A stretch of 24,291 nt of DNA from positions 1-24,291 of the IMG/VR virus record IMGVR_UViG_3300008050_005326; one strand, written 5' to 3'. The translations under genes were made by a program, and so were the position numbers. Positions 2,343-23,503 of the stretch are shown here, in pieces (the first letter of the stretch is position 1; each line of letters opens with the position of its first letter). This stretch comes from a virus. Under the pieces are notes generated by a model. The model saw nothing but the letters and a program-made list of their open reading frames with translations. It did not search any database and had not been told where the DNA came from.

Positions 2343-2768
2343 GTGTACGGCCTGTTCGACTCCACGTACTACATGCATTCAGCGCAGGTAGCGCTCTCTC
2401 CGGTGCGCTTGTGGGCCCCGAACGGTCCTGGCATCGTCGCACGATCGATCAAGATGGGTCGAGAGTACACGGTCGAGATGAGCTACGACTGCGTAGACCT
2501 GTCCGCACACTTGTCCAGGCCAGATGTCGTAGAGTGGGGCGTGCGAAACAAGGTTGTGTCGATCATCGCAGACACGGGCGACATGGTCGCCAAGTACGCA
2601 CCAAGGTTTGCATGGACGGCAGGGTCGAGGGCTGAGAGCGAGGGCCGCTCCATCAGCCGGCTCGCGACCGCGTCGTTTACTTTCGAGGTTTCTGCCCCTT
2701 CGGGACGTACACCCGACCGTACTTCTTGTAGTACCCAGCGTTCAGCAGAAGGTTCTGAGCCGCGTTGA
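2343..2768 (+). CDS. Hypothetical protein, 141 aa, last gene of the rightward operon
   Basis: A GTG at 2343 opens a frame nine bases after the previous stop, in the same frame. There is no strong Shine-Dalgarno, so it may depend on re-initiation by ribosomes ending at 2333. The product begins MYGLFDSTYYMHSAQ and looks like a mixed alpha/beta protein to about residue 111. The last ~30 residues are Ser/Thr/Arg-rich and are encoded in the 92-base stretch that overlaps, antisense, the end of the giant leftward gene. Codon use in the first 110 codons matches the neighbouring genes, which supports real coding. No family is recognised. Confidence 0.55.
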   Translation: MYGLFDSTYYMHSAQVALSPVRLWAPNGPGIVARSIKMGREYTVEMSYDCVDLSAHLSRPDVVEWGVRNKVVSIIADTGDMVAKYAPRFAWTAGSRAESEGRSISRLATASFTFEVSAPSGRTPDRTSCSTQRSAEGSEPR

Positions 2769-5700
2769 TCCTGTCGCGGTTGAAGTACATCTTCCCGCGC
2801 TCAGGATCGTAAACGTAGGCCCGAGTGCCCAGAGCCTCAAGCGCTCCGTCCCACGAGACCTTGCCGGCCTCTGCGACGTCCCCGGAATCCAACGCAGCAA
2901 TGATCGCCTTCTCGCGACGCTCGTAGGTCCCGATGAATCGCCCAGCGGGCGAACGACCCAGCAGCCAGCGTCGCCACGCGACCGCCCTTGCCTGCTTCGG
3001 GTCTCCATCCACAGCTTCGCTCACGTCCAACGCGGCCCTAAGCCAGCGCGCGCCGACCTTCTCTCGACGGGAAGGATGGACGAGTGCGGCGGCGTTCTGG
3101 TACCTGGAGTAGCCTTCTTCGTTCAGGACTTCTCGGACCGTACCGGTCGGAGATCCGCTGAAGAGGTCTCGTCCGCTGAAGCCCTCGATGAGGGTTCCCG
3201 CGAGGAAGTCGATCTGCGCGAGGAAGCGGAGGTCGTCTCGGGGGTTGGCGTCGGGCGCAAAGACCTTCCAGGCGAGTTCATCCTGCCCTGTCATCTTCGC
3301 GACGCGGTGGCCCATCATCTTCGCGACTTCGGTCAGGCCGATGACCTGACGAGCGGCTTCGTCAGCATTGATACCGTTGATCAGGTACTTCTTGTAGAGG
3401 TCGTCACCCTCTTCAGACCAGATGCCAACGCGCTCCGCCATCCAGTCAGACTGGTAGTCAGGCGTCGGAGGGGTCGCGCCCATCGAGTCTTGGATCGCCT
3501 TCGTTGCCTTCAGGGGGTTCGTCATGGCGGTCGGGTTCGTCATGACGTCGCGGAAGAATCGCTCCATCGAAAACTGGACCCAGGAGTAGAAGGGCACGAG
3601 CGTCCGCATGTACTTCTTCTCGAACTTCGACAGGCGAGACCAGTCGTTCAGGTGCTTGCGTACTTCTTCCGCGGCTTCGTCGAACGACTTCCCGCGCTTC
3701 ACTGCATCCGTAAAGATGGCAAGGCGGAACGGAACGTCAACGACGTGCTCAGACTTGCGAGCAAGCCAGCGCGCTCCGCCGACCGAGTTCTTCACGAAGC
3801 CGGCTGCGGCCCTAGTCGCGGCCCCGGCGGTCTCCTTGACGACTCCGCCGATCGCGCCCTCTTCTTTCATCGCCTGTGCGTAGCGGACCTTCTGGGCTCC
3901 GGCGAAGCTGTCTGCGACCGTGCGCAGCATCCCGATGTTCGGAATCATCCGTCCCCGGAAGAGATCCCCGAAGACTCCGTTGACGGCATCGATCTCGTTC
4001 GCGACGAATCCCTGCGTCACTCCGCGCATGAACGCTTGACGGTAGATTTCTTCAGCAGCGTACGCGTTCCCGTTCACTGACGGGATCATGTGGCCCCTGA
4101 GCGGCGCCTCCAGGTCGGCCGCCTTCATGCCCTTCGGGAGATTTGCGGTCTTCCCGAGCGAGCGCGCTACGTCAGTCTCCTTGCCGAAGGTCCCTCGGTA
4201 CACACCGAGGCCGACTACAGCCGCGGCGTCGATCCAGTTCTTCGGGTTCAGCATACGCAGGCCAACGTGACCGCTCACGAGGAATGCGTTTGTGATGAAG
4301 TTTCTACCGTGGTGCTCAAAGAAGGGGAGTGTGTAGGGGATCTTCCAGAGCAGCTGGAACTGCTGGTAACCCCCCAGGAATCGGTCGATCTTGTCCGACG
4401 GGTTCCAGGTGTGCCCGAATGCTTCGTCGATGGCGTCGAGCCAGACCTCGGGCACGTAGTACGAGCCTGACAAGGTCTTGTCCCCCCGCATCGCGAGCTT
4501 CTGCTCAGCCTCGCGCAGTCCACGGAGCGTCTCGACCGCCTCGTCGTGCGCCTTCGCGCCCTCCTGAACCTTACGCGCCCTAGTCCACCTGTTGATGTAC
4601 CGCTCTGCGTCCTTCAGTTCAGTGGCGAGGGTCGCCTGACGAGTCTTGAGATCGTCAACCTTCTTCGAGAGGGCCGCGGCCACCTTCTTTGGTCCGGCCT
4701 CTTCCTTCCAGAGCGTGCGCTTCGCCTCGCGGAGCAGCTTCGTCTTCTCGTCTATCTTCGACGAGAGGGTCGCGGCCTGAACTCTTGCACCACGAAGATT
4801 GTCGCCACGATGGACGCCGCGAGCAATACGCTCGCTCACGAGAGCCAGCTTCGCACCGAGAGCTTTGATTTCTGCATTGACCCTCCTGACGGTCTCTCGC
4901 TGCGCGCGCGTCGCCGTTCGGGTTGCCGCGTTGTGATCTCCCAACGCCTTCTGTGCAGCGTCGATGCGACCCTTGATTCCAGACGCCTCAGCGACCGCCT
5001 TCTTGATCTCGGCAGGCACGGACGCCCGAAGGGACTTCGCGACCCTGCGGGTCCGCTTCGCCCTCTTCTTCGCTTTGCGTTCCGCCTTCTGGAGACCTTC
5101 GTCAATGACGTCGCGGATCAGGCGCTGGGATTGACCTGCTCTGGAGGCAACGGCCTCCCGGCCTATGTCTGCAAACTCTTTGGCGCGTTCAGGGCTGCCC
5201 GCGTCGGTCCGCTTGCGGATATCTCCATGAAGGGTGCCGGTCTCAGTCTTACGGCGAGACGCGATCGCTCGCCCGATCTCTTCAAGCTGCTTCGGAGTGT
5301 GCTCTACCGCCTCTCGCTCAAGCGAGTGGCCCACGCGCTTCGTTCGGATGCTGCCAACGCCTCCGCTGATCTCTGTCAGAGCGAGGCGGTGGACGTTGTT
5401 CATCCTGCCGATCTTCTCGAACTGCTTGATCGCCTCGTCGCTCTTGCGCACCGTCAGATTCAGGTAGTCCCGCAGGGCCTCGAACTCACCAGAGCTCAGA
5501 CGGCTCACAGGCTTACCGAACGCGGACTTCGAGATCTTGTCCAAAGCCTTGAGGTTCGCGTTCCTCGTGGCCTTTGAGATCTCTTCGGCCGACACCGGCA
5601 TCTCCGCCGCAGCCTTGATCGCTGCCGGACGACCCCGCTTTCTTGGCGGGAACTTCTTCTTCGCTTCATCGATCCGCTTCTGCCGGATCTTGGCGACAGC

Positions 5701-7887
5701 CCCTTCCGACGTCGCGAACCAGTTCGCGTTCTTGACAGTGGCGGCGTCGGTGAACGAGTCGGCCAGTCGTACGACCTCTTCCTGGCTCACCCTCTGAGGA
5801 ACGCCGGTATCGATGTAACTCCTGGTCAGTGCCCCGAGCTTCTCCCCAATCTCTCCGATTGCTGCGTGGGCGTGCTTGAACCCTTCCCCGAGAGCGTCAA
5901 TGCCGTGCTTCTCGATCATCGCGGCTTGCGCCTTGACCTTGCCCTGAAGGCGAAGGGATGCAGACCAGCGGCGCGCTAGGATCGACGCAATGTCGGTGTC
6001 AACGGCGCCGGCTCCGAAGGCTCGCTCTGCGTCGTCGAACGTCGCAATGACTCGATGCATCGCGAAGCTGTTGCGGTTCGCGATCTTCGTTCGGTCCAGT
6101 TCAGCGACGAGGCGTCGCGTTCTGTTGCTGTTCCTGAAGAACTTTGTGACCGCGCCAGCGATCCTCGACCCGTAATAGTGGGTGACATAGTGCTCCCAGG
6201 AGTCTCCGAGCATCCCGAGTTCGCGCTCCTGCTGCGCGATCATTGAGAACTGTTCCTCGACCCACTTCGACGGCCCGTAAAGGGGTGAGGTTTCGTCGAT
6301 CAGCTTCATGTCGGGGTTGTCGAGGTGCCGCGCGATGATCTCGCGGTCAGCCTTCTGGAGCTTGCGTGGTACGACGTTTCCGTCCACGACGTCGTTCACG
6401 ACCTTCGCGTCGAAGAAGTCGACTAGCTCAGCCTTCTTCGACGCGACCGCGCCGCCGACCCCGTCCTTGATCTGCTGAAAGAGGGCGGCGTCTTCTGCTG
6501 GCATCCGCTCAATACCGGCACGGAACGACTTGTCGAGAGCGCGGATTGCGCTGGTCGGCATCACGGCCGAGAGCACGGTCTTCCCGAGTGCCGGCACTTC
6601 GGTGAGCAGCCCTGCTCCGATGGCATTTCCGACCATCCCGAGGTCGCCTGTCACGGCACCGAAGCCTGCCTGAGCGACGGCAGATGCGCGCCCCAGGTCC
6701 TTCAGTCCGCGCTCTTTGTGCATGAAGCTGGCGGTCTCCTGGAACAGCGACTCGACGTTACCTTTCTTTCCGGCAGACCTGTAGCCTCCGATCGCCTTGC
6801 CGGCCCACTCCTGAAACAGCGATCCGGGGCCCCGTCGGATGTTCGCGCGGAACTCAGTCGGAACGTCAAGGCCCCTCGTGAGCGCAGCCTTGTCCTCCCA
6901 CCCGGACACGCGCAGCGCGAGGCGGTCGTAGTTCTGGACCATGTACTCGGCGACAGCGCTCTTGTACCACGGCTGCGAACTGAGTCTGCCGAGGTCGCTG
7001 GGGGTCAGGGCCTCGATCCCTGCCCGACCAGAAACGGAGGGGTCGGTCGAGTCCATCTTCGCGACGAGCTTCTGGAGGCGCTCGGGCATCAGCTCAACGA
7101 GTTCCTTCGACGCCGCCTGATAGACCGTCTCGCCCCATCGGCTGAGCGTGAGGTTCGTTGGAATCTGCGCTGCGCCAGTAGACTCCTGAAGGATCGCGGC
7201 GGCGGACTTTGCCTTGCTGGACTTCGAGAGCCCCGTCTTTGCTGCGCTCTTGAGCGCAATCTTCGACCCAGAAGCAACTCCGAAAGAGAGGTAGGTAGAG
7301 GGATCGAGCGCAATATCCATGGCGAGGGCTCCTGCCCCAGCCTTGAGCCCTCGCATCTCGCTCCCGCCCATCATCCAGATGTCGCGGTATGAGGTCCTCG
7401 GACCGTCGGACATCTCGCCCGTCCACGCCCTCTTGAACTCATCGGTCGAGAATGCGAACCCCCAGGTCCCCTTCTCTTTGAGGCCTTGCGTGACCGCTGC
7501 TGAGGCAGACAGGAACATCCTGTAGCCGGAGACGGTCTCAATGACTCCGAAGACGTCGTCGAGCGCTCCGAGCACACCGCCGGTGTGCGACTTGTAGCCG
7601 AGCAGCTTTTCAACCAGCGACCGCTTCTCCTTCTTGTCGGAGACCGAGATCAGCCAGTCGAATTCAGACTCATTGATGAACCCCTGGCGCTGCGCCTCGC
7701 GCGCGTGCGCGATCCCTCTGTTTGGATTGTCGCGATTCGACGATCCTCCAGGATCGTTCGCGCCGTACCGCCCGATGCCGGAATTGTTCCAGGCGTACGG
7801 AGCGTTCGACGCCTTCTCGGTCGTGATGTCCGAGAACGGGTCGTCGCCGAGCGCGGCGTCGAATGTCTTGTTGAATCCGTCACTCAC
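2677..7887 (-). CDS. Giant internal virion / DNA-ejection protein, 1736 aa
   Basis: This is the last and longest gene of the late block, starting with GTG and overlapping the upstream gene by eight bases. The N-terminus (1-~70) is Asn/Gly/Ser-rich and looks flexible. A phrase near residues 189-201 (MDIALDPSTYLSF) is of a kind seen in very large phage virion proteins. Residues ~747-755 read PPRKRGRPA, an AT-hook-like motif. Residues ~910-1110 are a long basic coiled coil. Residues ~1185-1240 are hydrophobic with an RNFITNAFL segment. About 1378-1450 there is a region resembling LPD38-type domains of polyvalent phage proteins (PFRLAIFTDAVKRG, AAEEV, then TLVPFYSWVQF). Position and size match T7 gp16, the DNA-translocating ejection protein, but I see no transglycosylase motif. 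Function is inferred. Confidence 0.7.
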   Translation of the reverse strand: MSDGFNKTFDAALGDDPFSDITTEKASNAPYAWNNSGIGRYGANDPGGSSNRDNPNRGIAHAREAQRQGFINESEFDWLISVSDKKEKRSLVEKLLGYKSHTGGVLGALDDVFGVIETVSGYRMFLSASAAVTQGLKEKGTWGFAFSTDEFKRAWTGEMSDGPRTSYRDIWMMGGSEMRGLKAGAGALAMDIALDPSTYLSFGVASGSKIALKSAAKTGLSKSSKAKSAAAILQESTGAAQIPTNLTLSRWGETVYQAASKELVELMPERLQKLVAKMDSTDPSVSGRAGIEALTPSDLGRLSSQPWYKSAVAEYMVQNYDRLALRVSGWEDKAALTRGLDVPTEFRANIRRGPGSLFQEWAGKAIGGYRSAGKKGNVESLFQETASFMHKERGLKDLGRASAVAQAGFGAVTGDLGMVGNAIGAGLLTEVPALGKTVLSAVMPTSAIRALDKSFRAGIERMPAEDAALFQQIKDGVGGAVASKKAELVDFFDAKVVNDVVDGNVVPRKLQKADREIIARHLDNPDMKLIDETSPLYGPSKWVEEQFSMIAQQERELGMLGDSWEHYVTHYYGSRIAGAVTKFFRNSNRTRRLVAELDRTKIANRNSFAMHRVIATFDDAERAFGAGAVDTDIASILARRWSASLRLQGKVKAQAAMIEKHGIDALGEGFKHAHAAIGEIGEKLGALTRSYIDTGVPQRVSQEEVVRLADSFTDAATVKNANWFATSEGAVAKIRQKRIDEAKKKFPPRKRGRPAAIKAAAEMPVSAEEISKATRNANLKALDKISKSAFGKPVSRLSSGEFEALRDYLNLTVRKSDEAIKQFEKIGRMNNVHRLALTEISGGVGSIRTKRVGHSLEREAVEHTPKQLEEIGRAIASRRKTETGTLHGDIRKRTDAGSPERAKEFADIGREAVASRAGQSQRLIRDVIDEGLQKAERKAKKRAKRTRRVAKSLRASVPAEIKKAVAEASGIKGRIDAAQKALGDHNAATRTATRAQRETVRRVNAEIKALGAKLALVSERIARGVHRGDNLRGARVQAATLSSKIDEKTKLLREAKRTLWKEEAGPKKVAAALSKKVDDLKTRQATLATELKDAERYINRWTRARKVQEGAKAHDEAVETLRGLREAEQKLAMRGDKTLSGSYYVPEVWLDAIDEAFGHTWNPSDKIDRFLGGYQQFQLLWKIPYTLPFFEHHGRNFITNAFLVSGHVGLRMLNPKNWIDAAAVVGLGVYRGTFGKETDVARSLGKTANLPKGMKAADLEAPLRGHMIPSVNGNAYAAEEIYRQAFMRGVTQGFVANEIDAVNGVFGDLFRGRMIPNIGMLRTVADSFAGAQKVRYAQAMKEEGAIGGVVKETAGAATRAAAGFVKNSVGGARWLARKSEHVVDVPFRLAIFTDAVKRGKSFDEAAEEVRKHLNDWSRLSKFEKKYMRTLVPFYSWVQFSMERFFRDVMTNPTAMTNPLKATKAIQDSMGATPPTPDYQSDWMAERVGIWSEEGDDLYKKYLINGINADEAARQVIGLTEVAKMMGHRVAKMTGQDELAWKVFAPDANPRDDLRFLAQIDFLAGTLIEGFSGRDLFSGSPTGTVREVLNEEGYSRYQNAAALVHPSRREKVGARWLRAALDVSEAVDGDPKQARAVAWRRWLLGRSPAGRFIGTYERREKAIIAALDSGDVAEAGKVSWDGALEALGTRAYVYDPERGKMYFNRDRINAAQNLLLNAGYYKKYGRVYVPKGQKPRK

Positions 7888-9631
7888 CCGAAAGGACCCT
7901 GCGAGCTTCGGCCGTCAGGCCAACTCTCTTGAAGACGGCGGCGAGTGCGTTCCTGTCCTGAGAGCGCTCCTCCTCGTCCTTCGTCAGGCTAAACTTGTTC
8001 AGCTCTTCGATCCACTGGTCCGCCTCCTTGACGATCTGGGAGACGGGGTACTCAGTGGCAGGAAGGAACGAGACCCCTGTAATGTTCACGAAGCGCTTCT
8101 CGTCCTTCGGGGCTTCGGGCTCAGCTTCGGGCTCAGCTTCGGGCTCAGCCTCCTCTTCGACCGGAACCCCAGCGATGCGGTCAGCGATGTCGCGGCTGAT
8201 GTCGTCGTAGAGACCCTGCCACGCCTTGCCGACCGCCTCGGTCCCGCCGAACTCCTTGTTCTCGATTTCGCGGAGCACGTTCTGCGCCTCGTTCAATCCT
8301 TCGTAAAGGGTTGAAGGGTCTTCGTACTTGCGCGAGCGCTTCCAGAGGGACCGTGCGCTTGAGAGTTGGTTGAAGTACCCGGACATCACGATCGTGTCGT
8401 TCGTGGTCCTGTCTGCATCTTCGGCGTACGGGTCGTCGTCAGCGATGTTTCCGCCGGCGCGCGACAGGCGCTCTGACGCAATGATGAGCGCGTCAGGAGG
8501 AAGTTGGCTGAGCCTCATGTACTCGCCAGCGTTCTGATAGAAGTACAGGTCCATCTCTGCCGCGACCCGCTCACGCTGAGCGCCGGAGAGTCCGAGGCCT
8601 TCGGCAGTTCGGGTGAACGCAGCCTGTCGCTCCATTCGCGACAGGCCCTTGCCGTTCGCCCCGCCGATCTCGGTCACGAGCGCCTTGTACGTGTCCGCGT
8701 TGTCGCCGGTGAACTCCAGTCCGTCGTCACCACCAGCATACACCAGACCGGAAGATGTCCGACCTCCGAGTACGGACATCTCCAGATCCGTTGCGTCCTG
8801 GTCCATGGCCGCTTGGCGACCCTCATCGCGCTTGAGCTGGAATGCGCTGCGAGCAGCCTCTTCTCGATCCGTCCTTCCGGTCACGACGCTGTTCATATGC
8901 GTGATGAATGCGCCCTCTGTGACGACCTCAGAGAGATCGACGCCAGGGAATGTCGGCCCCATGTCGCGCAGGAAATCTTCGCGGGCCTGCTGGGCGACCT
9001 GCTTCATAGTCAAGCCGCTATCTGAGCCCTTTTCGTGCTCCTCCCTCCAGCGGTTCGGATTGAAGTTCCCCTTGCCGTCGTCGAAGAAGTTCTGACGCGC
9101 CCAGAGCTTCACAGAGCCCCAGATCTTGTCGTCGATCTCTCGCTCTTCCTGGCGCGCAGAAGCGCGCGCGGCGATGTAGTAGTGGCCTGTGCGCTGACGA
9201 GCGATGGCGAGACGGTTCTGGCGGTCCTTCTCGGACTCGTCCGCCTTCCGACCAGCCATGCGGTCTTCGTGCGCCATCTTGTCGTCGAGGATCCGGATCT
9301 GCGCGGCCTCGGCCTGATCCTGCAGGTCGATGTCGTGGTCCATCTTGATTCGCTGAAGACGCTCGCGAGCCTTCTGTCCGCGAAGCTCGCGAGCGTCGAT
9401 GCTTTCGAGTTCCATCGCGCGAATCTGCATCATCTGCTTCTGGCGCCGGTCCTGAGCGATCAGCTGCTCCATCCCGAGCGCGATCTGCTGGACGTGCATC
9501 ATCCGTTCGTGCGTCTGCTTCTGTCGAAGCAATCGCTCCTTGTTGATGTCCCCCATCGCCTCGGCGAAGCCCTCGGCGCGACCTGCGCTGTCGCCGAGAT
9601 GGCCGAGCATGGCTTGAGCCTTGAGTGGCAT
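7880..9631 (-). CDS. Coiled-coil internal virion protein candidate, 583 aa
   Basis: The ATG overlaps the previous stop as TAATG. Residues ~25-170 are a long charged coiled coil rich in Arg, Gln, Met and Glu. The middle (~180-470) is mixed helical with many Asp and Ala. An EPEA tandem repeat at ~495-508 acts as an acidic linker to a C-terminal helical domain (~515-583). No enzymatic motif is visible. It lies between a 306-aa protein with a membrane-like segment and the 1736-aa protein, and this order matches T7 gp14-gp15-gp16, so it is the gp15-like candidate that would help form the trans-envelope conduit. The analogy rests on order and composition, not on recognised sequence similarity. Confidence 0.6.
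   Translation of the reverse strand: MPLKAQAMLGHLGDSAGRAEGFAEAMGDINKERLLRQKQTHERMMHVQQIALGMEQLIAQDRRQKQMMQIRAMELESIDARELRGQKARERLQRIKMDHDIDLQDQAEAAQIRILDDKMAHEDRMAGRKADESEKDRQNRLAIARQRTGHYYIAARASARQEEREIDDKIWGSVKLWARQNFFDDGKGNFNPNRWREEHEKGSDSGLTMKQVAQQAREDFLRDMGPTFPGVDLSEVVTEGAFITHMNSVVTGRTDREEAARSAFQLKRDEGRQAAMDQDATDLEMSVLGGRTSSGLVYAGGDDGLEFTGDNADTYKALVTEIGGANGKGLSRMERQAAFTRTAEGLGLSGAQRERVAAEMDLYFYQNAGEYMRLSQLPPDALIIASERLSRAGGNIADDDPYAEDADRTTNDTIVMSGYFNQLSSARSLWKRSRKYEDPSTLYEGLNEAQNVLREIENKEFGGTEAVGKAWQGLYDDISRDIADRIAGVPVEEEAEPEAEPEAEPEAPKDEKRFVNITGVSFLPATEYPVSQIVKEADQWIEELNKFSLTKDEEERSQDRNALAAVFKRVGLTAEARRVLSGE
8112..8147 (-). repeat. Three perfect 12-bp tandem repeats encoding EPEA
   Basis: The plus strand reads GCTTCGGGCTCA three times in a row. 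On the minus strand this encodes Glu-Pro-Glu-Ala units in the linker of the 583-aa virion protein. Perfect DNA identity of the copies suggests recent expansion by slippage, and copy number may vary between related phages. Confidence 0.9.
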
Positions 9632-10551
9632 TACACGACCGCCGAATCTTCGGGAAGGGTTCCGTGGATGTCACCCGCTCCCGCCGTGCTCGCGTCATTG
9701 ACCTGAGGGTCAGGCACGCCGCCTTCAGCGGTCTCGAACGGCTGCGACGTCTGCTGCTGGCTTTGGCCGCCACTCTGGATCAGCTGATCGAAGAGAGCGC
9801 CGAACGCCTGTCCGGCAGCGCCGATGCCTTGCTGGACCGCTGACGACTCAGCCTGCTTCATAGTCGAGACACGCTCGATCTCCAGAAGCGACTGACGCTC
9901 CGCGCTCAACTGAATGCCGTACTTCGCCTCGATGGCGCTCAGGCGAGCGAGCGCATCACTCCGCGCCTCTCGGGAGGCTTCTCCGATCGCTCTCGTCAGC
10001 TGAGGGCCAACGGTCTGTCGGTACTGCTGCTCTGCGAAAAGCTGTGCTGCGATCTTCTGAGAGCCTGTGAGGTTCTGGCCAGCGGACTGGATCGCGAAGA
10101 GGCGAGCGTTCTCCCGCGCTGCGAGTTCGATCGGCGTCGCCCACTGTGCGAGCTTGTTTTCGATGTCTGCCCGAAACCGCATCACCCCTTCCAGGTCCGA
10201 CTCGATATCTGACCGCCTCTCGCGAGCTTCGTCGATCGCGTCATTGATCGCGGAGTCGTACGCGATCCCGTCGATCAGTCCGTAGATCGCTCCGAGCGCG
10301 AGTCCGACGATCCCGTAAAGGGAGCCGCCAGCTTGCCCGCTTCCTTGGCCGAGGTCGCTGAAGAAGATGCTGGACTTGATCGTGTCTCGGGTGTGCTGCT
10401 CGTTCTCGGGGTCGAGCGCATCGGGGTTCGCCTCGAAGTACGCATCGTAGTCGTACCGCTCCGACGCGAGGTACCCCGACCCGCCAGCACCGCCGATCGA
10501 ATCGCTCGCTGCGCCGCCGGGGCTTCGTCTGGTGAACTCGTCGTCAGGCAC
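9631..10551 (-). CDS. Internal virion protein candidate with a membrane-like segment, 306 aa
   Basis: The start is GTG with GGAG eight bases upstream. The N-terminus is Gly/Ser/Ala-rich and flexible. Residues ~78-98 (LYGIVGLALGAIYGLIDGIAY) form a glycine-spaced hydrophobic stretch that could insert in a membrane. Residues ~100-235 are helical and coiled-coil-like, rich in Ala, Arg, Glu and Gln. The C-terminal ~60 residues are Gln/Gly/Ser-rich. A small Gly-rich protein with one membrane-like helix, encoded just before two progressively larger internal proteins, parallels T7 gp14, which enters the host outer membrane during DNA ejection. Function is inferred from position and composition. Confidence 0.6.
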   Translation of the reverse strand: MPDDEFTRRSPGGAASDSIGGAGGSGYLASERYDYDAYFEANPDALDPENEQHTRDTIKSSIFFSDLGQGSGQAGGSLYGIVGLALGAIYGLIDGIAYDSAINDAIDEARERRSDIESDLEGVMRFRADIENKLAQWATPIELAARENARLFAIQSAGQNLTGSQKIAAQLFAEQQYRQTVGPQLTRAIGEASREARSDALARLSAIEAKYGIQLSAERQSLLEIERVSTMKQAESSAVQQGIGAAGQAFGALFDQLIQSGGQSQQQTSQPFETAEGGVPDPQVNDASTAGAGDIHGTLPEDSAVV

Positions 10552-17166: not shown

Positions 17167-17173
17167 ACCTCCT
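17167..17173 (-). promoter_or_regulatory. Shine-Dalgarno overlapping the capsid stop codon
   Basis: On the minus strand AGGAGGT overlaps the TAG of the capsid gene and lies eight bases before the ATG at 17158. It decides that start and suggests efficient translation after the capsid gene. Confidence 0.8.
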
Positions 17174-18281
17174 ACCAGGTGTCCACGGAGCCGCCACCGG
17201 TGCCGCCGAGGCGACCCTGGACTCCCAGGTTCGAGTACATCATGACCTGGCTCACGAGGGCGTGAGTCACGTCGGCGAACTGCGTGTCGGAGTACCGCTT
17301 CGGTCCGTCGATGGCGACGTCCACCTCGGGGTGGTGACCGATGTACATGCCCTGGATGTCGCCGGCTTCGAGCGACAGGTTCGGGTCCTCGGTGCCGGAG
17401 CCCGCGAGGTTGCCGAACTGGGTCCGCTGCGCCTCCGCCGTGATCGCGATCCCGCACTCCGCGGGAAAGTCGCTCTCTTCGACGATCGGACAGCCCAGGA
17501 GCTGGACCTGATGGGGCACACCGGCGTTCACCGACGGGTCGATGCCGCCAGCGCCGCGGAAGGCGAACAGCTGGCTCATTGCGCGGAGCACGTTCAGGTG
17601 GATCGCGCTGTTGACGAGGAACACGTTCGGGAAGAGCGTGCCCTGCTTGCAGTCGGTCAGCAGCTGGAGCATCGTGAAGATGCCTCGGACCAGGTTGCCG
17701 CCCAGCGCGTCGCCGAACGCCTGACCGACGGTGTGCTGCCGGCTCTGGTTCTGCCAGTACGGCGTGGTCGCCTTCGGGATGCGGCCGACGACCGCGGTCT
17801 GAGCCGCCGGCGCGGCGTCCTCGATCGCGTTCAGGATGCCGAGCGGCTCCTTGCCGCCGGTGCCGTTCAGCGTGTAGAAGGCCAGCCGGTTGCGCAGCGT
17901 GATCATCATCTGGCGGAAGCGACGCTCCTCCAGGCTCATGATCGCGGACTGCCCGCGGTTCTGCCACTTCTTCGTCCACTCGACCGTGAAGGGGATCGCG
18001 CCCCAGGCCCAGGTGAACTCAGCCGCGGTGTCGCCGGGCTGGAAGTCCTTGCCGACCTTGTCGAGGTCGGTGAACCACGTCAGGTCCCCGGTCTCCTGAA
18101 CGAAGAGGGGCTGGACGATGGTGTGGCCGCCGTCGACGGGCTGGACGAAGCCCTTCCGACCGAACCACGAGTTGGTGACGTTGGCGTTGGAAACGAGGTC
18201 GACGATCGACCCCATGCGCGACAGCATGGTCGCGAGCAGAGCCTCGTCCGTACGAGGGTCTCCGCTGAAAAAGACGGGCAT
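17172..18281 (-). CDS. Major capsid protein, HK97-like fold
   Basis: The 369-residue length, the position just after a scaffold-like gene, strong codon bias and a very good ribosome-binding site (AGGAGG five bases before the ATG) all fit the major capsid protein. Residues ~168-178 (IPKATTPYWQN) match the 'treat-tPYW' loop typical of one HK97-fold capsid family, followed by a helix like the spine helix (~185-208) and strands with FLVNSAIHLNVLRAM. This shell protein would assemble around the scaffold and portal. There is no N-terminal delta domain long enough to replace the separate scaffold. Homology is judged by eye. Confidence 0.85.
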   Translation of the reverse strand: MPVFFSGDPRTDEALLATMLSRMGSIVDLVSNANVTNSWFGRKGFVQPVDGGHTIVQPLFVQETGDLTWFTDLDKVGKDFQPGDTAAEFTWAWGAIPFTVEWTKKWQNRGQSAIMSLEERRFRQMMITLRNRLAFYTLNGTGGKEPLGILNAIEDAAPAAQTAVVGRIPKATTPYWQNQSRQHTVGQAFGDALGGNLVRGIFTMLQLLTDCKQGTLFPNVFLVNSAIHLNVLRAMSQLFAFRGAGGIDPSVNAGVPHQVQLLGCPIVEESDFPAECGIAITAEAQRTQFGNLAGSGTEDPNLSLEAGDIQGMYIGHHPEVDVAIDGPKRYSDTQFADVTHALVSQVMMYSNLGVQGRLGGTGGGSVDTW

Positions 18282-19376: not shown

Positions 19377-21251
19377 TCAGCGTCCTCTGTTCGTCGCGCC
19401 AGCACTGGCGCTAACACTATCTTGCACGCCTGCGCCCGCGCTGTCAACCCCATCCCCGATCCGGGCCGAAGTGCCTGATTCTCCTCCGGTTCCGCCACCT
19501 AGGCTGCCCGGGGAGGGCACGCCCGGGCCCGCTTCCTCTGCATCCCCGCCCGAGAGGACCCGCGAAGGCCACCCGTTGAGCGCCGCGATCAGCTTCGAGA
19601 CCTCCTTCGGGTCGAAGTGCTGCAAGAGTACCGGGTTCGCAAACAGCTCCTTCAGCTGCTGAACCATCATCAGTCTGCCCGCCAGCGGGTCGGTTGCCGC
19701 CCGATTGACGGCGCTCATCGTGTAGTTCGCGATGCCGGAGACGGAGTCTCGGTCCATCGTGAAGCTGATCCCGTTGGACGTCACGACGAACTGCGACGAC
19801 CCGTACTGCATGATCAGCCATGTCGCGATCAGGGCGACGTCCATGTAGGCGTCGTAGAGCTTGCCCATGATCTCGCTCTGGCGCTTGTCCATGAACGAGG
19901 CTTCCTGCACGAAGGCGGTTGCGACCTTGTTCGACTCGCCGGAGCCCTGCGACGTCGAGGTCGCCCCGGTGTTCCTGCTGAACGACTGGTCTGCCAACTG
20001 GTCCATCTGCACCAGCGACGTCGGGAACTGCCTCGTGTGCGAGACCGTCGGGTCGAATCGCGGGCCTCCGTACCTGATGATCCGCCGCGTGAAGTTCCCG
20101 GAGGCGATCTCCTCCGTGGTCTCGTCGTCGATCACGACCGACTCGGGGATCCACATCGCGTCGGACGCCGACCACGCGGCGTGCTCCCGCACGGTCCTGC
20201 GCACCCAGGCACGGTCCTTCATGTCGTCCCACGCGAAGGAGATGTATGACGGCGTGAACCACATGAGCGGGTGCGTGTCGTCTGCGCGGATCACGGTCCA
20301 GCGGTTCGGGATCGCCAGCTTGTCCAGCGGCAGGATCCACTTCCCGCTGACCATGTCGATCACCCCAAACAGGCCCGACTCTTCCGGCTTGCTCGGGTCC
20401 TGGCGCACGTAGACCTCAGCGAGGACGGCCAGCTTCTGGTTCGTCATGGGCCGGAAGCTGGTCAGCTTCACGTTCCCGAACTTGATCGCCTCGGTGCGCC
20501 CTCGCACTTCGACCGTGTCCAAGTGCTCCTTGTAGCCGTACTGCCGCTCGACCTGGGCCGGCGTCCTGAGCACGAGGTGGGCGATGTAGTACGCTGCCTC
20601 CAGGCTCCCGATGTACGGGTCGGTCACGACGTGACGCGGATCCACGTACTCCGTCCGCGGCGTGCTCATGTTCGAGAGCGTCGGCATGTCGTTGATCTCG
20701 ACGCTCTTCATCATCTCCGGGGTCAGCTGAGCGACCTGAGCGATGTCGATCGCGGGCATCTGGTCGGGCGGAACCTCGTCGAGCCGGATCGGGCCGCCCT
20801 CGTCGGGGGAGCTTCCGTCTCTGGAGGGGTCGGCGCCCACGTCGGTGACGTCATCGAACGCCCGCTGCCACGCCACCGTGTTCGGCATCGCCGTCTTCAG
20901 GAACCCGCACGGCGAGTACACGCAGCAGCGATGACCCTGCGAGACCTTCCTGGTCATCTTCATGCGCTTCGCCAGCTGCTCCAGGAACGCCTCCATCCCG
21001 AGCGAGTTGTCGAGTCCTGCGCGGTCTGCGTACTCGATGTCGAGCCACGGAGGCACGCCGAGGAATCCGATCTCCCGCACGAACCGGTCGATGCGGCGCG
21101 CGAACGGCGCGATCGCTCGCAGCTCCCCGTCGGTGATCTTCTCCTGCGGGTTCAGCAACTTCTGCTGCCTGTCGATCAACGGGTGCACCTCGCTCACGAG
21201 GATGTTGAGATCGGACTTGATCACCTCCCACCAGTTCGTTCCATCGCTCAT
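19377..21251 (-). CDS. Portal protein
   Basis: This 624-residue protein lies right after the large terminase, the usual portal position. Its middle contains a typical portal phrase (YVDPRHVVTDPYIGSLEAAYYI, near residues 205-226), then beta-rich wing elements, then a helical crown-like region (QEASFMDKRQSEIMGKLYDAYMDVAL). The C-terminal ~55 residues are Gly/Ser/Ala-rich and probably disordered. It would form the dodecameric channel for DNA packaging and exit at one capsid vertex. The ATG overlaps the small upstream ORF stop as ATGA with GGAGAT upstream. Strong GC3 codon bias resembles the capsid gene. Confidence 0.8.
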   Translation of the reverse strand: MSDGTNWWEVIKSDLNILVSEVHPLIDRQQKLLNPQEKITDGELRAIAPFARRIDRFVREIGFLGVPPWLDIEYADRAGLDNSLGMEAFLEQLAKRMKMTRKVSQGHRCCVYSPCGFLKTAMPNTVAWQRAFDDVTDVGADPSRDGSSPDEGGPIRLDEVPPDQMPAIDIAQVAQLTPEMMKSVEINDMPTLSNMSTPRTEYVDPRHVVTDPYIGSLEAAYYIAHLVLRTPAQVERQYGYKEHLDTVEVRGRTEAIKFGNVKLTSFRPMTNQKLAVLAEVYVRQDPSKPEESGLFGVIDMVSGKWILPLDKLAIPNRWTVIRADDTHPLMWFTPSYISFAWDDMKDRAWVRRTVREHAAWSASDAMWIPESVVIDDETTEEIASGNFTRRIIRYGGPRFDPTVSHTRQFPTSLVQMDQLADQSFSRNTGATSTSQGSGESNKVATAFVQEASFMDKRQSEIMGKLYDAYMDVALIATWLIMQYGSSQFVVTSNGISFTMDRDSVSGIANYTMSAVNRAATDPLAGRLMMVQQLKELFANPVLLQHFDPKEVSKLIAALNGWPSRVLSGGDAEEAGPGVPSPGSLGGGTGGESGTSARIGDGVDSAGAGVQDSVSASAGATNRGR

Positions 21252-21436: not shown

Positions 21437-23503
21437 CTATCCGGTGCGCTCTGACTTTGTCTTCAGAGCTTCATACTTGCCCTTGTCGTTCTTTACGAAC
21501 CCCTCAGCGTCCCACTCGAATCGCTCGTCCACGATGGTGATCAGGTCGTTGTGGTACGCCTTCCTGAACGCAATCAACAGAGGCTCACGAGAAGCGGGGG
21601 TTTGCAGGAACCACACAGCCTTCAGGGTCTCTGTGTACCCCTTCGTGCGGCGCTCCTGCTCGTAGTCGTGACCGTGCCCGTAGTGCTCCCACGCTTTCAG
21701 CGCGACCTTCCCGGGGCCGTTCAGCTCTCCGATCACGTATGTGTCCGCGTGCCCGTAGAACGACACCGCTTTCGCGATCTCGTCCGCGCTAATCTCCGGG
21801 TCGATCCGCGTCCGACGCACAGCGCAGACGAGGCCGTCGTTCACTCGCGCTACGCCGATCGGCGAGTAGTCGCTGTCGTTCAGCCCGTCCGCAAAGTCGC
21901 CGGCGACCGCGTAGTACGCCTTCTCACCAGGAGGGAGTGGGGGCGGGTCCCACATATACCAGCCGCCGCGGACAGTGTCGCGGAACCCCACACTGTTCCG
22001 TACGGTCTGGACCTGCGCTCCGAACCCTGTCGTGGTCCACTCGAACTCACCGATGCGGTCCGCCGCCCTGCTCGCCTGGAGCCTCATGAAGAACCCACCA
22101 GAGACCAGTCCGAGCGATTCTTCGTACGTGTACGGGTACTCGGTGTGAACGAGCAGCAACTCGTCCAGCTCTTCGATCTTCCGCCGCCTGAACCCTACCT
22201 GCTCTGGTGTGAGCCTAAGTTTGCGAGCGTAGTCCTTTTCGCAGATCGGGTGCGGCTCGCCGTCGTCGCCGATCTCAAAGTCTGCAAACCTCCCGGCCGG
22301 GTTCGTTTCCTGCCTAGGTCCTGGTACAGGGTCGCCAACGTTACTCGCAAGCGACGCCGCTCCGAAGAACTGGAAGTCAACGTACGAGAGGACGGCGATG
22401 CGGTTCAGCTCGTGTGCCTGCTCGTCGTTCGTTCCCTCGTGCGCAATTACGTTGCGGGTCGACGGGTACACCGCGGGCAGGATCGCCTGATTGATGTTCG
22501 ACCAGACCTCCCCGCCTCCAACCCGCTCGTACTTCCCCGCCTCTGAGATGATGACCAGGTTGTACCCTGTGGCGCCGACCTTCTGCACGCCGCCGCTCTT
22601 GATGTCCGCGTGCCTGATCTCCCAGGCCGAGCCGTTCGCGAGCGCGAGCTTCCCCTCGGTGTAATTCTCCTGGATGAGCGGTGGGTACAGGTGCGGCCAC
22701 TTCGCGTTGAGTTCCCGCAGGTCAGCGGCGATGTCTCTGAGGTGGTCCTTCGCGTCGTCCTTCATCGGCAGGTGGAGCAGTGTCGCCCAGACGTCGATGT
22801 TCGCCCCGCAGAGCACGCTGAACTTCTTCCAGAACGTCGTGCTTCCGACCTTACGCGGCTTCGTGCGAGTGATCCAGTGCTTGTCCGTGGTCAGGCGCGG
22901 CTTGTGTACAACCTTCCCTCTGCGCACCCGTAGCGTGGTCTCTGGCACATGCGGGTCGTCGTTGGCCCACCTCTCCAAAAAGGGGCCGTAGCACTGGCGC
23001 TGGTAGCGGGAGCGGGGGTCTATCCCATCGAGGTCGAAGGGGATGATGTCCTTCTTGATCAGGCCCTGGGCATCTTCCGAGGTCAGCTGCGAGTTCACCG
23101 TCAGGAACGTCCGCATCCACTCCTTCGGCTTCTTGAGCGCCATCTTCCTGGCCTCGTCGCGCGTACCTCTGCGGGTCCCCTTCTCTGTGCCATTCTCGTT
23201 GTGGAGGTCGTCTTGAAGCTCGACCTCATCGCGCGATGCTGTGATCACGTCCAGGGAGGGGAGCGATGCGTCAGGCTTTGACTCGATTACTGAGTCGAGG
23301 ACCTTGTGCGCTCTGGTTCCAGCCATGACCACTGCGAACGCGGCCTGTACGTACCAGTGGTTCGCGGGCAACATCTTCCGCAGAAGCTCTGTGCTGGAGC
23401 GGATCTTGTCGTCGAGCTGCTCTCGGTCCGCGTTTGTGCAGTCGAGAGCAGAGCGGCGAGAGACAGCGGCGGCGAGGTCTCGCAGGGACCAGGAGTCTAC
23501 CAT
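21437..23503 (-). CDS. Terminase large subunit (packaging ATPase-nuclease)
   Basis: The protein powers DNA packaging and cuts the concatemer. The ATPase domain has a Walker A-like KPRKVGSTT at 215-223, a Walker B-like LVIISEA at 316-322 (Ser-Glu instead of Asp-Glu, a known variant) and a coupling-motif-like HEGTND at 355-360. The RNase H-type nuclease domain shows GDFADG with Asp536, then Asp543/545, then GELNGPG with Glu593, and a likely third acid at Asp653. The 688-residue length includes about 200 residues before Walker A, a longer N-terminus than in many relatives. The gene overlaps the preceding small gene by seven bases and has no strong ribosome-binding site, so translation is probably coupled. 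Confidence 0.88.
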   Translation of the reverse strand: MVDSWSLRDLAAAVSRRSALDCTNADREQLDDKIRSSTELLRKMLPANHWYVQAAFAVVMAGTRAHKVLDSVIESKPDASLPSLDVITASRDEVELQDDLHNENGTEKGTRRGTRDEARKMALKKPKEWMRTFLTVNSQLTSEDAQGLIKKDIIPFDLDGIDPRSRYQRQCYGPFLERWANDDPHVPETTLRVRRGKVVHKPRLTTDKHWITRTKPRKVGSTTFWKKFSVLCGANIDVWATLLHLPMKDDAKDHLRDIAADLRELNAKWPHLYPPLIQENYTEGKLALANGSAWEIRHADIKSGGVQKVGATGYNLVIISEAGKYERVGGGEVWSNINQAILPAVYPSTRNVIAHEGTNDEQAHELNRIAVLSYVDFQFFGAASLASNVGDPVPGPRQETNPAGRFADFEIGDDGEPHPICEKDYARKLRLTPEQVGFRRRKIEELDELLLVHTEYPYTYEESLGLVSGGFFMRLQASRAADRIGEFEWTTTGFGAQVQTVRNSVGFRDTVRGGWYMWDPPPLPPGEKAYYAVAGDFADGLNDSDYSPIGVARVNDGLVCAVRRTRIDPEISADEIAKAVSFYGHADTYVIGELNGPGKVALKAWEHYGHGHDYEQERRTKGYTETLKAVWFLQTPASREPLLIAFRKAYHNDLITIVDERFEWDAEGFVKNDKGKYEALKTKSERTG

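Follow-up and report, generated by a model that had tools for sequence, protein, structure and literature searches.

In phage T7, the proteins gp14, gp15 and gp16 (196, 747 and 1318 amino acids) are ejected to form a channel across the envelope, and the C-terminal part of gp16 binds DNA without sequence preference, as described in PMC8954989. Phage JC1 encodes neighbouring products of 196, 510 and 4515 amino acids, the largest an LPD38 protein, and PMC9144972 lists all three from virions by mass spectrometry. Phage Jasmine is a podovirus by electron microscopy with a 10-nm tail, according to PMC5513430. For Anabaena podophage A-4L a structure is available: PDB entry 9k3a holds ORF26 (1114 amino acids; relatives in the Saffermanviridae phages Pf-WMP3, Pf-WMP4 and TR020) as chain A and the product of the adjoining gene, the giant ORF27, as chain B. 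Here we compare these systems with a giant protein encoded in virus record IMGVR_UViG_3300008050_005326, whose whole stretch of 24,291 bases was analysed and is called the window. We hold with good confidence that this product is the head-core ejection protein of a podovirus, built of conserved ends and a variable middle.

The open reading frame (ORF) of this protein, called in an initial annotation of the window, is confirmed, and its parts (all on the minus strand) are as follows.

2677-7887, minus strand: gene of the giant protein, 1736 amino acids; an uninterrupted ORF with a GTG start that ends the late operon.
6973-7635, minus strand: N-terminal module, residues ~85-305, found with a profile seeded from window residues 60-330.
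7291-7317, minus strand: signature DIALDPSTY, residues 191-199, used in the back-translated pattern scan of viral contigs.
4498-5880, minus strand: lineage-specific stretch, residues ~670-1130, which contains the AT-hook-like motif; delimited by a search with seed 760-1130.
5623-5649, minus strand: the AT-hook-like PPRKRGRPA, residues 747-755; present, and conserved neither in relative L009 nor elsewhere in the family.
4498-5310, minus strand: basic stretch, residues 860-1130, with 66 lysines and arginines (K/R) and 38 aspartates and glutamates (D/E).
2740-4470, minus strand: C-terminal module, residues ~1140-1716, related to A-4L ORF26 (9k3a chain A) by profile-profile comparison.
3415-4473, minus strand: residues ~1139-1491, related by profile-profile comparison and by predicted folds of the BFVD database to the C-terminal region of LPD38-type proteins.
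3580-3594, minus strand: PFYSW, residues 1432-1436, the core of the C-terminal block in the comparison with relatives.

Pfam and PHROG scans recognise no enzymatic domain in the protein, and Pfam finds no transglycosylase domain in it at expectation values (E) up to 10. The 44,945-base record IMGVR_UViG_3300025133_000214 (G001) contains the same DNA, differing at ten of the 24,291 bases, and its giant protein is identical to that of the window save one residue.

The C-terminal module is the best-supported part of our reading. Profile-profile comparison with five proteins of the A-4L ORF26 type aligns it at 99.2% (E 1.8e-19, 498 columns; reversed control, 0.1%), and the aligned range, from residues 1140-1716 of the window protein to 462-1017 of ORF26, takes in the whole module. 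When the module profile of 44 sequences is run against all PDB sequences, the sole hit below 0.02 is 9k3a chain A, named 'Tail protein'. Because its C-terminal end resembles this podophage protein, the giant protein is probably located in the phage head and would leave it with the DNA. The likeness has its bounds: the first 461 residues of ORF26 lie outside the profile match, and A-4L carries a pair of large proteins, against a single one in the window. A 2025 study by Hou et al. reportedly describes, by its title, a pentameric pre-ejectosome in the capsid of phage A4. We take phage A4 to be A-4L and 9k3a to come from that study; proteins of the ORF26 type would then presumably lie inside the capsid on the portal. 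A 991-amino-acid relative of the window protein (L010:6069-9044) has a hit to phrog_19395, whose label 'tail fiber protein; host specificity' A-4L ORF26 also carries in RefSeq; if 9k3a is a head-core structure, as we presume, this label is misleading.

A more distant relationship joins the C-terminal module to LPD38-type proteins, for which the reference is JC1 gp69 together with six proteins assigned to the type through their similarity to gp69 or to others of the six. With the 44-sequence alignment and the window protein as master, residues ~1139-1491 match this reference at 96.5% (E 7.8e-10); five other masters give 96.5-97.2%, the reversed LPD38 control at most 0.2%, and an earlier, smaller alignment 93.5%. 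The named Pfam domain spans template columns 361-558, whereas the match extends to column 380 when the window protein is master and to 468 for the five others; most of it lies upstream of the Pfam domain. A window-seeded profile of the module, run on 1,890 ORFs plus controls, retrieves the C-terminal pieces of JC1, BcepIL02, Ruegeria 45A6 and Vibrio 1.205 at E 8e-7 to 3e-4, where they rank among or just below the last family members; the next-lower ORFs have E 0.14 or worse. Longer ORFs of the same four phages score E 3e-5 to 0.013, with none of the four reversed copies listed, and a broader profile of the module finds LPD38-type C-terminal pieces at E 3e-7 to 2e-4. The initial annotation had seen a segment resembling LPD38 at residues 1378-1450 and proposed a hidden Markov model search as its check. 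That search, with Pfam LPD38 (PF18857, cut-off 27 bits), returns no match in the window, G001 or phage DS1 at E up to 10; the C-terminus of JC1 gp69, the positive control, scores 120 bits. Membership of the Pfam family is thus rejected at family level. What stands is that the segment falls within a region which these comparisons relate distantly to the C-terminal part of proteins of the LPD38 type, for the most part before the named domain.

Comparison at the level of predicted folds adds to this picture. A search of BFVD with the module model yields 28 predicted viral structures at E <= 0.001, including those of Shocker and of TR020, a member of the A-4L family; ten of the 28 are named 'large polyvalent protein associated' or ART-PolyVal, and two entries named LPD38 fall just below the threshold (E 0.003 and 0.011). 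VIA-align reaches a best Z of 3.1, with 9k3a not listed. A T7 gp15-gp16 chain was set aside as a fold match (Z 2.6 over 69 residues, not meaningful). The model of the N-terminal module has a predicted template modelling score (pTM) of 0.31, too poor for searching.

The wider family was assembled by scanning viral contigs with the back-translated signature D(V/I/M)A(L/F)DPxTY. This pattern occurs at at least 120 viral loci, against 2 for an equally degenerate pattern of the reversed peptide. For 108 of the 120 listed loci, the ORF that holds the signature has at least 400 amino acids or runs off the contig, and the signature stands 90-280 residues after its start. Among the remaining 12, seven start at the contig edge, L059, L063 and L085 have a short or differently arranged ORF, and L065 and L113 look like chance matches, as may at least one short open ORF (L131) of the 108. 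In L059, the signature is in an ORF of 287 amino acids and the C-terminal module in a separate one of 1980, which points to a split gene or a frameshift. The N-terminal module profile matches 99 of 99 signature-bearing ORFs of at least 400 amino acids among the matches listed, a count that is partly circular because the set was selected by the signature. Since the loci were chosen by this N-terminal feature, the C-terminal module is an independent test of the family. Among the matches listed it is found, with a profile iterated on that same ORF set from the window seed, in 51 of the 55 ORFs of at least 400 amino acids that end within their contig (one being the window's copy, L132); the four exceptions are L085, L098, L111 and L137. 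At 90% identity the 55 ORFs reduce to 48 clusters, 44 of them with the module.

Relatives recognised by the signature and/or the PFYSW block include Cellulosimicrobium phage DS1, Arthrobacter phage Jasmine, phage ctEqG8 and locus L010, with Microbacterium phage Shocker added by profile; the giant proteins of the four phages are all annotated 'hypothetical protein'. Several family members are short, at 831-1100 amino acids. Pfam scans of 53 members (E <= 0.01) give no family that recurs in a second member and no LPD38 match, and in 28 members scanned against NCBIfam no model recurs either. The PHROG family phrog_36598 (unknown function), whose profile spans Jasmine gp29 end to end, matches 10 of the 28 scanned members. 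Two short patterns run on a bacterial and archaeal genome collection returned no relatives, a result that does not show absence. One member of 2404 amino acids (L082:3849-11060) has a match to phrog_5935, also of unknown function, in the middle of the protein at residues 1174-1329.

Gene order provides a second line of evidence. Two genes stand directly ahead of the giant gene.

7880-9631, minus strand: gene of 583 amino acids, directly upstream of the giant gene; presumed second ejection protein.
9631-10551, minus strand: gene of 306 amino acids whose product contains a single hydrophobic stretch; presumed from position and size to be the small ejection protein.

The description of the giant protein as 'ejection-type', made at the outset, gains support from this small/medium/giant cassette, which ends the late operon, and from the C-terminal homology to the solved A-4L protein. 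Across the family, a same-strand gene adjoins the giant gene in 68 of the 77 listed loci with more than 1.3 kb upstream (simple longest-ORF caller). The adjoining product has a median length of 439 amino acids and measures 350-620 in 50 of the 68. Because these upstream proteins form several sequence clusters (the window's groups with that of L009 only), position is conserved more than sequence. Jasmine gp29 and its counterparts in DS1, Shocker and the podovirus isolate ctEqG8 share with the window protein the succession of N-terminal and then C-terminal module, and their loci share the order of small, medium and giant gene. They differ in having no BLAST match to its middle (E <= 0.001), and DS1 is the only one of the four with a C-terminal BLAST match (24% identical over 394 columns). 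Genes of lysis type come after the giant gene in DS1, Jasmine and Shocker, and not in the window. LPD38 proteins such as gp69 of Burkholderia phage JC1 likewise carry the related region (~1139-1491 in the window protein) at the C-terminus and stand in the same three-gene order; gp69 has been found in virions (PMC9144972), as is presumed for the window protein. The window protein differs in having no Pfam LPD38 match, no enzymatic domains found and no N-terminal module in common with these proteins. Like the window protein, the inner-membrane ejection proteins gp16 of T7 and gp16 of P22 are the last and largest of three late proteins, but no sequence relation to them was found.

These comparisons suggest a mechanism in which the giant protein would serve a podovirus-like phage as its large internal-core (pre-ejectosome) protein. 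It would probably be assembled, together with the products of 583 and 306 amino acids, inside the head near the portal, and the three proteins would probably be expelled ahead of the DNA to build a channel across the host envelope. In this process the C-terminal module probably docks the giant protein in the virion and in the ejection complex, and the N-terminal GxxxDhAhDPxTY module would be a second constant part.

Several results weigh against such a role. The PDB hit to 9k3a chain A reaches E 0.006 over the whole chain and E 0.1 in its best stretch alone, with the PFYTW block aligned. Foldseek lists no PDB structure at E <= 0.001, and 9k3a is absent from its list; the AlphaFold2 model behind these searches, mostly helical, is middling (mean predicted local distance difference test score 65, pTM 0.61); the BFVD superpositions are loose, with query template modelling scores of 0.19-0.47 among the 28. 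On the LPD38 side, the uncut ORF of Vibrio escapes the broader module profile and that of JC1 has E 98, and an LPD38-type profile finds its best match in the family at E 7e-5 but the window protein only at 0.039. Compared directly, the LPD38-type and A-4L profiles give 2.3%, which is not significant, so that the two are linked through the window's family. The N-terminal module is found by profile neither in A-4L ORF26 or ORF27 nor in the three LPD38-type ORFs compared, of which one is truncated at the start. No T7 or P22 gp16 match appears among PDB sequences at E <= 1. Besides the window copies, the 583- and 306-amino-acid proteins have no detectable relatives beyond L009 among the ORFs compared, and for this reason their role rests on position and size. 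Finally, this phage is represented here by its genes, from which the podovirus type and the virion presence of the protein are predicted.

A stretch LDTILDPID near residue 386 of A-4L ORF27 (L147:682-5835) was considered as a counterpart of the N-terminal signature and dropped, since the profile scores the reversed sequence higher; were it real, A-4L would have the two modules on two neighbouring proteins.

The middle of the protein is where a different function had been proposed. An AT-hook has a GRP core with basic residues on both flanks, and the initial annotation had envisaged a virion protein that binds the minor groove of incoming or host DNA by a true AT-hook. PPRKRGRPA is present exactly at residues 747-755, with the core and its basic flanks, and it precedes a region that is basic, as was also said (residues 860-1130, 66 K/R vs 38 D/E, isoelectric point 10.7). 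However, the motif sits in a stretch, residues ~670-1130, that is lineage-specific: seed 760-1130 matches just the window protein, its copy L132 and L009 (E < 0.06 in 110 family proteins, among the matches listed). The sole full-length relative found, L009 (IMGVR_UViG_3300009481_000001), is 53% identical (909 identities over 1701 aligned residues), yet it shows KGKARKAAA with a two-residue gap opposite PPRKRGRPA, and the motif core is absent. Among the matches listed, [RK]GRP is present in 4 of the 110 family proteins, namely the window protein, the near-identical copy L132, and L078 and L081, where it sits in other contexts. L119 and L135 resemble the window protein upstream of the lineage-specific stretch, up to residues 649 and 665, at 25-32% identity; in the nearest compact relatives, L054 and L069 (831-848 amino acids), ~150 residues separate the two modules. 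Shuffling the protein 20,000 times at constant composition yields GRP in 33% of cases, RGRP in 3.5%, [RK][RK]GRP in 1% and the most stringent of the patterns tried in 0.09%, figures that weigh little either way because the motif was picked after reading the sequence. No AT-hook profile appears among the Pfam matches at E up to 10, although HMMER filters easily lose motifs this short. Because RGRP is not conserved in L009 or elsewhere in the family, an outcome that had been named beforehand as telling against it, the AT-hook is not supported. Minor-groove binding by such a motif is very unlikely, and the RGRP of the giant protein is probably incidental. Of the broader idea of DNA binding, the basic charge is what survives: it is maintained at the motif site (K/R against D/E: 14 and 6 for the window protein, 14 and 5 for L009). 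If the middle contacts DNA, it would by analogy act through charge, as the C-terminal part of T7 gp16 does without sequence preference. A potentially misleading AT-hook claim is thereby removed for the window protein, and a motif-based guess gives way to a testable link.

The lineage-specific stretch is equally what one would look for in a polyvalent conflict protein, whose conserved ends deliver and whose middle is an effector against the host or its defence systems. The distant homology to LPD38-type proteins fits such an account, as do fold matches named polyvalent, ART-PolyVal, helicase, lysozyme-like and Zeta toxin, and two findings among the 28 members: a match to ParB-like PHROGs in one, and a match to a DNA methyltransferase PHROG in a member that may be the same one. 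Still, the window protein yields no enzymatic domain, the 53 relatives share no Pfam family beyond a single member, and few of the families matched are enzymes. The definition of polyvalent proteins by Iyer et al. (2017), several domains with disparate biochemical activities in one chain, does not describe the window protein. We regard this account as rather doubtful. A giant virion RNA polymerase like that of N4 would agree with the size, the late-operon position and the presumed ejection, but no polymerase match is found in Pfam or among PDB sequences (E <= 1) and several family members, at 831-1100 amino acids, are short; it is extremely improbable. A head-core ejection protein with conserved ends thus remains our preferred reading. 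At least 100 giant phage proteins appear to share the C-terminal module with a solved podophage protein and, more distantly, with LPD38 conflict proteins. If this module is the loading or docking part, genome-ejection machinery and injected effectors would come into one scheme, and effector payloads could be recognised by their place between two constant ends. A bolder version, which we offer as speculation, sees a large family of giant head proteins of podoviruses, to which our scans assign no Pfam or NCBIfam model and which has two constant ends and freely replaced middles. The ends might then be a general chassis for virion loading and ejection, the C-terminus being common to the ejectosome and to LPD38 conflict proteins, and the middles an interchangeable payload, of which the window's basic stretch might be a DNA-contacting one.

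The remaining genes of the late operon are consistent in order with this placement. A terminase-like gene at 21437-23503 (match to a Roseobacter phage terminase, E 3e-6) is followed by a portal-like gene at 19377-21251 (SU10 portal, E 0.001, below the Pfam cut-off), the major head protein gene at 17172-18281 (phrog_9953, E 3e-21), several more genes, and then the genes of 306, 583 and 1736 amino acids. The left part of G001 encodes a protein of 1034 amino acids (L005:7377-10481) that combines a zinc ribbon of the DnaG type with a Toprim-like stretch and an MCM-like P-loop domain; the latter two score below the Pfam cut-offs, and the whole reads as a primase-helicase of unusual make-up. The same record encodes a CHAP-domain protein, likely a lysin (L005:753-1373), and a D12-class adenine methyltransferase (L005:10478-11752).

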